Below are positions 12,929-25,583 of a stretch of DNA of 64,000 bases, one piece after another. The position numbers and the translations under genes were made by a program. Positions within the stretch are counted from its first letter, which is position 1. Each line of letters begins with the position of its first letter. Below the pieces are notes generated by a model, which saw nothing but the letters and a program-made list of their open reading frames with translations, did not search any database and was not told the origin of the DNA. The stretch is from assembly GCF_013282215.1 (NCBI RefSeq), contig NZ_CP048103.1, positions 3,038,001 to 3,102,000 of the forward strand, written 5' to 3'. This stretch comes from Kroppenstedtia eburnea (lineage in GTDB: Bacteria > Bacillota > Bacilli > Thermoactinomycetales > DSM-45169).

Positions 12929-13093
12929 AGGGCGTGGCAGGTCAATTCAAATTTCCGTGGAATGTGAGACGTTGTAGGAGTAACAGAGGGAGGGGGGGTT
13001 CCCATGGAGTGATTTTGGATCGTCAGAACAACGAAAACAACATGTGAAGCCCCATCCCGACCGTCTTCTGGCGCAGTAAATCACAAACTTCTA
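12928..13093. repeat. MITE-like repeat, copy B (mosaic ends)
   Basis: The left end is TAGGGCGTGGCAGG (type 1) and the right end is GCAGTAAATCACAAACTTCTA (type 2), so this copy joins two end types. The core contains CCATGGAGTGATTTTGGAT and ACATGTGAAGCCCCATCCC. The right TA is inside the stop codon of the cstR-like gene. Confidence 0.72.
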
Positions 13094-13357
13094 ATGGCTC
13101 TTCACCAGCAGATGGATCGCTTCTTCCACCAACTTCCCGGTATCTTGGTCTTCCCCCTTTTCCAACTCCTCCCGGATGCATCGCTCCAAATTGCGACTGA
13201 CGATATAGGCGCTGGCCCGATCCACCGCTGACCGAACTGCGGAGAGTTGGGAAACCACGTCTTTACACGGTTGTTCTTCCTCCATCATTCGCAGAACCCC
13301 GCGCAGCTGCCCTTCCACCCGACGCAAGCGTTTTTTCATGTCTTCACTGTACTCCAT
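13091..13357 (-). CDS. CsoR/FrmR-family repressor, CstR-like (persulfide type)
   Basis: This is an 88-residue, all-helical DUF156 protein (MKKRLRRVEGQLRGVLRMM, then SQLSAVRSAVDRASAYIVSRN). Counted from the ATG at 13357 (AAAGGAG 7 nt upstream), the only cysteines are Cys31 (QPCKD) and Cys60 (LERCIRE). The position that is His in copper-sensing CsoR, four residues before the second Cys, is Asn56. That pattern matches the persulfide sensor CstR, whose two Cys form a polysulfide bridge, rather than a copper sensor. No sulfide-oxidation genes are adjacent; a TauE/SafE gene, which belongs to some cst regulons, lies at 57.6 kb. Its TAG stop is formed by the end of a repeat element. Confidence 0.8.
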   Translation of the reverse strand: MEYSEDMKKRLRRVEGQLRGVLRMMEEEQPCKDVVSQLSAVRSAVDRASAYIVSRNLERCIREELEKGEDQDTGKLVEEAIHLLVKSH

Positions 13358-23396: not shown

Positions 23397-23430
23397 CAAA
23401 AAAACGCACCATCATTTTGGTGCGTTTTTT
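23397..23430 (-). terminator. Terminator of the tRNA cluster
   Basis: AACGCACC and GGTGCGTT form the stem, with A and T runs on both sides, so it works in both directions. It ends the minus-strand tRNA transcript and may also serve the convergent GH18-like gene. Confidence 0.88.
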
Positions 23431-23506
23431 GGCGTGCCCTGAGAGATTCGAACTCCCGACCTTCTGATTCGTAGTCAGACGCTCTATCCAGCTGAGCTAA
23501 GGGCAC
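23430..23506 (-). tRNA. tRNA-Arg (ACG)
   Basis: A 77-nt cloverleaf with acceptor GTGCCCT/AGGGCAC, anticodon loop CTACGAA, T-loop GTTCGAATC and encoded CCA. It is the last tRNA of the cluster and one of two near-identical copies. Confidence 0.95.
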
Positions 23507-23509
23507 ATA

Positions 23510-23596
23510 TGGTGCGGACGAGAGGACTTGAACCTCCACGGTCTAATGACCACTAGATCCTGAATCTAGCGCGTCTGCCGATTCCGCCACGTCCGC
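23510..23596 (-). tRNA. tRNA-Leu (CAG)
   Basis: An 87-nt class II tRNA with acceptor GCGGACG/CGTCCGC, anticodon loop TTCAGGA, a long variable arm and encoded CCA. A second copy lies at 24031. Confidence 0.95.
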
Positions 23597-23667
23597 GGGA
23601 TTTTGTGTCACAAGAGATATTATATAACATCTGGAGAAACAGGTCAAGAGCTTTAAAAAATAAGAAA

Positions 23668-23742
23668 TGGAGCGGAAGGCTGGACTCGAACCCGCGACCC
23701 CCACCTTGGGAAGGTGGTGCTCTACCACTGAGCTACTTCCGC
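23668..23742 (-). tRNA. tRNA-Gly (CCC)
   Basis: A 75-nt cloverleaf with acceptor GCGGAAG/CTTCCGC, anticodon loop TTCCCAA and encoded CCA. It is the first of two tandem copies that share their flanking sequence as well. Confidence 0.94.
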
Positions 23743-23838
23743 GTCTGCAGTACGATGCGCACCCATGAAGAGTGCATGTGGCGCGCCCCGGGATCTTGGA
23801 AATCCGGAGAAACAGTCAAGAGCTTAAAAAAAGAAAGA

Positions 23839-23913
23839 TGGAGCGGAAGGCTGGACTCGAACCCGCGACCCCCACCTTGGGAAGGTGGTGCTCTACCGCT
23901 GAGCTACTTCCGC
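23839..23913 (-). tRNA. tRNA-Gly (CCC), second copy
   Basis: It differs from the copy at 23668 by single bases (for example in the D-arm) and has the same anticodon loop and CCA. The surrounding 170 bp are also duplicated. Confidence 0.94.
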
Positions 23914-23950
23914 GTCTGTAGTATGATGCGCACCGATGGAGCAGTGCATG

Positions 23951-24027
23951 TGGCGTGCCCTGAGAGATTCGAACTCCCGACCTTCTGATTCGTAGTCAGA
24001 CGCTCTATCCAGCTGAGCTAAGGGCAC
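23951..24027 (-). tRNA. tRNA-Arg (ACG), second copy
   Basis: Same sequence as the tRNA at 23430, with anticodon loop CTACGAA and encoded CCA. It forms a repeated Leu-Arg pair with its neighbour. Confidence 0.95.
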
Positions 24028-24030
24028 ACA

Positions 24031-24117
24031 TGGTGCGGACGAGAGGACTTGAACCTCCACGGTCTAATGACCACTAGATCCTGAATCTAGCGCGTCTGCC
24101 GATTCCGCCACGTCCGC
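24031..24117 (-). tRNA. tRNA-Leu (CAG), second copy
   Basis: Same sequence as the tRNA at 23510, class II, with anticodon loop TTCAGGA and encoded CCA. Confidence 0.95.
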
Positions 24118-25113: not shown

Positions 25114-25268
25114 ACAGATCGGCTCCAACATTTTTACGAGCCAACGAAGTTTATTATATGATGGACAAGGAATTATGTCAAGAGGGTTTTCCGATCTCTT
25201 TCCGGGAGTTGCAGAGATTTTTTCAACGTATTACTATATACGGGTAGGGGTATAAGGAGGGAAGACCA

Positions 25269-25583
25269 TTGAACATTCATGTTACAACCACAGCCGCAAA
25301 AAAACTAACGGACATCATCAAAAACCAGGGATCCGCCAGTGATCGGATTTATATTCGGCTGTATTTCGACGGAATCGGGTGAGGAGGTCCCCGTTACGGT
25401 ATGACTCTGGAAGAGTCATCTCAGCCTGGCGACACTGTCGTTGAAGCGGACTCTTTACGCTTTTTGGTCGCAGAACGGGACCAACAGGCGGTGGATGGAG
25501 CCCAAGTCGATTTCACCCACAGCTGGCTAGGTGATCGCTTCCACATTCGGCCCCCCAGCCATCTGCCTGCAGTTGACTGCTGA
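25269..25583 (+). CDS. HesB/IscA-like protein with in-frame UGA, predicted selenoprotein
   Basis: The frame starts at TTG, 8 nt after AAGGAGG, and runs 104 codons if UGA at 25380-25382 is read as selenocysteine (residue 38). The N-terminal part is TTAAKKLTDIIKNQ and IYIRLYFDGIG; after the UGA the same frame continues GGPRYGMTLEESSQPGDTVV, VVEADSLRFLVAERDQQAVD and DRFHIRPPSH. In HesB/IscA proteins the GxGCGGP cysteine binds iron or the Fe-S cluster, and the UGA stands exactly at that Cys. HesB-like selenoproteins with GUGGP are a known bacterial family. A hairpin fitting a bacterial SECIS follows. The C-terminus ends DC, not CGC, so it is not a classic A-type carrier. If the organism lacks Sec machinery it would instead be a pseudogene. 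Confidence 0.78.
25401..25419 (+). promoter_or_regulatory. Predicted bacterial SECIS hairpin
   Basis: ATGACTCT pairs perfectly with AGAGTCAT and closes a GGA loop. The loop begins 26 nt after the UGA, and its first base is G. As I recall the bacterial SECIS model, it asks for an apical loop some 16-37 nt after the UGA with a G in its first two bases. The stem is inside the reading frame, as in all bacterial SECIS elements. Confidence 0.65.

Follow-up and report, generated by a model that had tools for sequence, protein, structure and literature searches.

A HesB-like selenoprotein gene of Kroppenstedtia eburnea and its probable place in a persulfide-sensing regulon of Bacilli

In the window (the whole 64,000-nucleotide stretch of Kroppenstedtia eburnea DNA analysed here) a HesB/IscA-like reading frame is interrupted by a UGA codon, which raises the questions of whether this codon is read as selenocysteine (Sec) and, if it is, what the resulting protein is for. 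Direct reading of the sequence confirmed what an earlier note on this DNA had stated, namely that one TGA, at positions 25380–25382, breaks an otherwise intact frame and that a ribosome site and an in-frame start precede it: the Shine–Dalgarno element AAGGAGGG, found by reading the sequence, occupies 25254–25261 (+ strand), the TTG start lies at 25269, and the frame continues on the same strand to a terminal TGA at 25581–25583. Read through, the gene (25269–25583) would encode 104 residues, the 38th of them Sec, and the product contains the stretch ...GIGUGGPRYGMTLEES..., in which the UGA is codon 38 of the motif GIGUGGP. That ordinary annotation would give a headless fragment also held true, as the ORF listing (minimum 60 aa) shows only 25401–25583 in this frame. 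The 60-aa fragment is what one would see if the locus were a pseudogene or a sequencing error, with translation truly ending at the TGA and the sequence behind it in decay; the results given below leave that reading a negligible chance.

We searched the genome (3.56 Mb, one contig) for selA, selB, selC and selD, and all four were present. selA scored 609 bits and selD, which has one in-frame TGA within its own frame, 396 bits; selB was above its cut-off with 298 bits for the main stretch and 322.6 bits with the neighbour in frame, and tRNA-Sec (selC) scored 66 bits, in agreement with ARAGORN, which reported the anticodon TCA. Among 42 genomes of the order, the selA cut-off was passed by 10 and the selD cut-off by the same 10, with tRNA-Sec detected in 11; the TGA form of the HesB-like gene was found in four of the 42, all of them among the 10 carrying selA and selD. 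In each of these 10 genomes selD itself (L060–L069) has one in-frame TGA, in the context KAGUGCKIGP or KAGUGCKLGP and followed by predicted hairpins. Genomes G006–G009, of the same family, have selA, selD and tRNA-Sec, and a TGA-containing HesB match was not found in them.

At the level of the class, a sample of 398 genomes was searched with a four-sequence profile (E<=1e-12). Matches were obtained in 136 genomes, 27 of which had exactly one internal TGA, and no TAA or TAG occurred inside the matches listed for this sample. Together with six named metagenome loci (L084–L089), the 27 genomes provided 33 loci (L083, the same record as G003, stayed outside the 33 but was kept in the fold alignment), and in 33/33 the TGA stands at the same codon of the GUGGP motif. 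The UGA aligns with Cys or Sec of the homologues, among which L090 and L038–L040 are Cys forms. tRNA-Sec was detected in 26 of the 27 TGA-form genomes as compared with 10 of 53 genomes in which every match was stop-free (Fisher p 7e-12), the latter being every second of 109 such genomes; the sole TGA-form genome without a detected tRNA-Sec (G119) is a draft assembly in 420 contigs.

The conservation of the TGA in 33 loci indicates that it is not a read error. The downstream half of the gene gave dN/dS values of 0.14, 0.16 and 0.21 in three pairs (the K. eburnea genome and two near relatives), and the upstream half a value of 0.065 in one pair with unsaturated dS; judging from these ratios, purifying selection acts on the downstream half and, in that one pair, on the upstream half too. 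Absence of the Sec machinery, a read error and decay of the downstream half, named in the earlier note as observations that would count against a selenoprotein, were all looked for and none appeared. The pseudogene or error reading was rejected on these grounds, that is, a TGA at one codon throughout with no TAA or TAG, downstream dN/dS of 0.14–0.21, the machinery present, and the conserved hairpin described next.

A hairpin of SECIS type, ATGACTCT-GGA-AGAGTCAT, lies at 25401–25419 (+ strand), with stems at 25401–25408 and 25412–25419 around the loop GGA (25409–25411). Its stem begins 18 nt after the UGA and its loop, as previously proposed, 26 nt after it, at 25409. A passage in PMC1088965 describes a small apical loop with a G as a feature of bacterial SECIS elements, and the loop found here matches that description. 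Folding 56 nt of the window sequence alone was uninformative (z −0.36), and the fold of the mRNA, which had been put forward as a check, was therefore not significant for the single sequence, but it was for the comparison across the 33 loci. The core CTC-TGGAN-GAG occurs at a fixed distance after the UGA in 33/33 loci, with a single departure in four of them (L098, L101, L117 and L125), and all fold a hairpin there. The mean hairpin energy over the 33 loci was −9.2 kcal/mol as compared with −4.0 kcal/mol for random synonymous recodings; for 19/33 rows the native energy ranked in the lowest 5% among the recodings of that row, and the window row narrowly missed this band (27 of 500).

Covariation was evaluated in the 29 distinct rows against 500 shuffles. 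None of these reached the share of paired cells (88%), the 14 doubly changed pair cells or the covariation score (0.257), and the other two of the five measures were unremarkable (three pairs changed on both sides, with 87/500 shuffles as high, and 10 further pair types, with 30/500). When the partner strand was slid by one to three columns, only 29–54% of cells were paired and the score did not exceed 0.11, although a slide of +1 still left 12 doubly changed cells. The stop-free homologues (n=32) gave no hairpin signal (−2.1 vs −2.6, with 0/32 in the lowest 5%). The synonymous-codon controls, the covariation and the 32 stop-free homologues lacking the hairpin speak against both chance and decay; by this comparison the hairpin is under selection, and the selenoprotein with a SECIS-type hairpin that the earlier note had read from one sequence gained support from the 33 loci and from the negative control.

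Because the UGA is conserved, the hairpin selected, the Sec machinery present and the downstream half under purifying selection, we regard the gene as a selenoprotein gene, in which UGA 25380 is almost certainly decoded as Sec. Decoding would proceed through SelB and Sec-tRNA, aided by the hairpin at 25401–25419, and would yield a 104-residue protein of the IscA fold with Sec38.

The relationship to HesB-like proteins, which had been suggested beforehand, was supported by Pfam PF01521, for which the read-through protein scored 36.3 bits against a cut-off of 26.3; with TIGR00049 it reached 58.6 bits, the cut-off being 58.8. The two models of HesB-like selenoproteins gave scores below their cut-offs, 41.4 vs 85 for NF038090 (IscA_HesB_Se) and 32.4 vs 66.35 for TIGR01911. 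The structure model, built from eight sequences, had a pLDDT of 89.8 overall and of 57 in the final residue block, and predicted an IscA fold, with HI1723 and Escherichia coli IscA as the top PDB matches. Moreover, the UxGP motif, given for HesB-like selenoproteins in the relevant part of a 2026 review (PMC13188914), is present at the HesB cysteine as GIGUGGP. The protein thus resembles the selenoproteins of NF038090 and TIGR01911 in having Sec at the HesB cysteine, UGGP, a SECIS-type hairpin and the IscA fold, and differs from them in falling under the cut-offs of both models. Two of the 18 Sec proteins scanned (of the 33) reached E<=1e-20 with NF038090, the best value being 7.8e-26, and the group therefore looks continuous with the HesB-like selenoprotein family. 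As far as sequence comparison goes, the window gene is a divergent member within this known family, below the NCBI cut-offs, and since it scores under the NCBI selenoprotein models, such genes could stay split in annotation.

The family has been described for some time. Eleven HesB-like selenoproteins were counted in 2006 (PMC1794560, in the passage on this family), and the corresponding part of a 2016 survey lists 90 in 86 organisms, making it the sixth most frequent bacterial selenoprotein family by organisms (PMC5029168). For the HesB-like gene of Methanococcus maripaludis, a section of PMC11097638 reports that a disruption mutant was unimpaired in nitrogen fixation, and the function of this member was there called not clear in 2024.

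The fold raises the possibility that the selenoprotein is a classical A-type Fe-S carrier with Sec in place of one of the ligand cysteines. PF01521, the predicted IscA fold and the PDB matches agree with this, the position of Sec is that of the first ligand cysteine of IscA, SufA and ErpA (TIGR00049, PF01521), and in a dimer the Sec and the C-terminal Cys of both chains could act together. However, the window protein differs from these carriers in lacking their C-terminal Cys-Gly-Cys pair (CGCG), and this element was absent from all 33 Sec proteins compared. Sec38 is the only chalcogen residue that the 33 relatives all have, and besides Sec there is no cysteine in 15/33 and exactly one, C-terminal, in 18/33, so that the three-cysteine ligand set of IscA is absent. 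In addition, the same genome encodes a separate A-type protein (L018) with the GGGCSG and C-terminal CGCG that mark A-type proteins. We consider an A-type carrier unlikely, and the earlier suggestion of a metal-binding scaffold drew little support, given the missing ligands and a genomic context (see below) that points to persulfide or sulfane-sulfur metabolism.

The tree of the family (125 columns, 65 rows) is poorly resolved, with 23 of 61 inner branches starred, and on it the Sec group needs three changes. The Cys forms L038–L040 are placed among the Sec forms with support of 91/82, on a branch that is not starred. Owing to the poor resolution, no claim of a switch between Sec and Cys is based on this tree.

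Just 5′ of the Shine–Dalgarno element lies a predicted CsoR-family-like operator, ATACGGGTAGGGGTAT, of 16 bp at 25238–25253 (+ strand), with N6 spacing and an imperfect left half-site (ATACG). A weak candidate promoter, TTGCAG-17-TACTAT (25209–25237, + strand), was read by eye and ends at the operator; it is graded weak because it was not among the promoter-scan predictions. A palindrome of the same kind, ATACC-N6-GGTAT, precedes many relatives and is clear in them. We take it to be of the CsoR-family type, an assignment that here rests on where the sites occur. Of the 27 TGA-form genes, 12 carry ATAC[CG]-N6-[CG]GTAT no further than about 150 nt from the start, where 0.18 sites were expected from a 285 kb background and 0.035 from shuffles, and N5, N7 and N8 spacings were found at 0/27 of these genes. 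In the metagenome loci the palindrome had N7 spacing in five of six and N6 spacing in none. A longer palindrome, ATACCATATA-CCCC-TATATGGTAT, surrounds the N7 core upstream of the HesB-Sec gene in L086 and L089, and palindromes like it occur in L084, L085 and L087; this may be an operator of another CsoR-family kind, and the loci are from uncultured Bacillota.

A strict N6/N7 pattern gave 11 sites in the K. eburnea genome as compared with five for the reversed control; the window operator was not matched by this genome-wide pattern. Three of the 11 are N6 sites at a sulfur locus, and three are N7 sites at a copper locus, adjoining a copper ATPase (recognised by eye) and CsoR. The genome encodes three CsoR-family proteins. 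The copper-site histidine divides CsoR from CstR. Two of the three copies keep Cys-His-Cys (by eye), and the third, encoded at 13091–13357 of the window (− strand; PF02583, 85.6 bits), has two cysteines and no copper-site histidine. CstR has two cysteines according to a passage of PMC9918477. The gene at 13091–13357 is of the CstR type, lies 12 kb from the selenoprotein gene and is proposed as its regulator.

As CsoR and CstR form one family with similar palindromes, the selenoprotein could instead be under the copper sensor CsoR and take part in copper or metal handling, and the two Cys-His-Cys CsoR-type genes of the genome, together with the N7 spacing in the metagenome loci, which is that of the copper locus, fit this. 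The spacing within the genome, N7 at the copper ATPase and CsoR but N6 at the sulfur locus, argues for CstR, as does the set of 27 genomes, in which N6 was found 12 times and N7 never. On account of the spacing, and with sulfur genes among the neighbours in 9/20 loci of 12 kb, control by a copper sensor is rated quite improbable. Membership of the gene in the CstR (persulfide-sensing) regulon of Bacilli is likely.

The content of the sulfur locus agrees with such membership. In K. eburnea the N6 palindrome stands before TusA-DsrE and, separately, before rhodanese-CstA-CstB-TusA-TauE genes (identified by Pfam). These form a cst-type cluster at C1:742117-748131 (4117–10131 of L163) with three N6 palindromes, in the order rhodanese, TusA, DsrE_2, rhodanese, TusA-rhodanese (CstA-like), metallo-beta-lactamase-rhodanese (CstB-like), TusA and TauE. 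Of 20 genomes compared over 12-kb stretches, nine have cst-type genes no more than 6 kb from the one for the selenoprotein, several of them as one cluster with CstR, CstA, CstB, TauE, DsrE and rhodaneses; in L145 a rhodanese stands alone near the selenoprotein gene. Neighbouring ORFs were delimited by a simple longest-first procedure, so that some are spurious, and 95 of the 96 listed were scanned against Pfam (one of 1099 aa was left out); of 100 families, with 25 listed, the most frequent were ABC_tran (6) and Rhodanese (5). There were also three PF01521 matches among the neighbour ORFs.

To compare the TGA loci with stop-free ones, we used 47 distinct control loci (49 before two duplicates were removed). 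An N6 site or a cst-type gene was present within 1.5 kb in 17 of the 27 TGA loci, two of which (L021 and L098) are shortened by contig ends, as compared with three of the 47 controls (p 2e-7; the loci are related, so that p-values overstate independence and serve as guides only). All three positive controls (L038–L040) belong to this very subfamily as its Cys form, in genomes without tRNA-Sec and without selA or selD over the cut-off. The 44 controls outside the subfamily showed neither feature over this distance, which is a further point against an A-type carrier. Ten of the 27 TGA loci were negative over the same 1.5 kb; for one of them (G091, L117) a cst cluster lies further out, at 1.7 to 6 kb.

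A working selenoprotein gene that is also a member of a sulfur regulon is the explanation we propose, and we hold the two together to be probable, with a little less confidence than regulon membership by itself. Persulfides would modify CstR and release the palindrome; such modification has been reported for CstR and YrkD (in passages of PMC5480029 and PMC9918477). The selenol of the protein could then take up, pass on or reduce sulfane sulfur next to TusA- or rhodanese-type carriers. For Sec reacting with persulfides or sulfane sulfur, rather than taking part in three-cysteine Fe-S holding, we see an even chance, inferred as it is from the missing ligands and the neighbouring genes. The Bacilli HesB-like selenoprotein may, at about even odds, be a dedicated selenol enzyme or persulfide carrier that bears a single selenocysteine on an IscA fold, has given up the Fe-S ligands and is induced through CstR along with CstA, CstB, TusA, DsrE and rhodaneses.

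The neighbourhoods resemble the cst operon of Staphylococcus aureus (as set out in parts of PMC5480029) and the yrkD cluster of Bacillus licheniformis (PMC9918477) in combining a CstR-type repressor with CstA, CstB, TusA, DsrE, TauE and rhodanese genes. They differ from both of these CstR regulons in that, in the Bacilli studied here, cst-type genes stand beside HesB-Sec genes or under the same palindrome; the main text of the yrkD paper contains neither 'hesb' nor 'selen', and the passages of the S. aureus paper on cst genes and operators name no such protein. Among open-licence papers, a link of HesB-like selenoproteins to CstR or persulfide metabolism was not found, and a literature search with seleno- terms returned no paper on Kroppenstedtia selenoproteins by title. 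What is new is the genome-context link of HesB-Sec genes to the persulfide regulon, the family itself being already known. If true, a persulfide role would supply the function that this selenoprotein family, still described as being of unclear role, has lacked. The repeated link to the regulon, which the Cys form shows too where the Sec machinery is absent, makes the question of function testable.

In the window, the selenoprotein gene is flanked by a tRNA array and by an apparent reversed rRNA operon, the rRNA being recognised by eye. Within the array the tRNA pair Arg(acg)-Leu(cag) is present twice, at 23430–23596 and 23951–24117, and Gly(ccc) occurs twice between the two copies, perhaps as the result of a duplication within 23430–24117.
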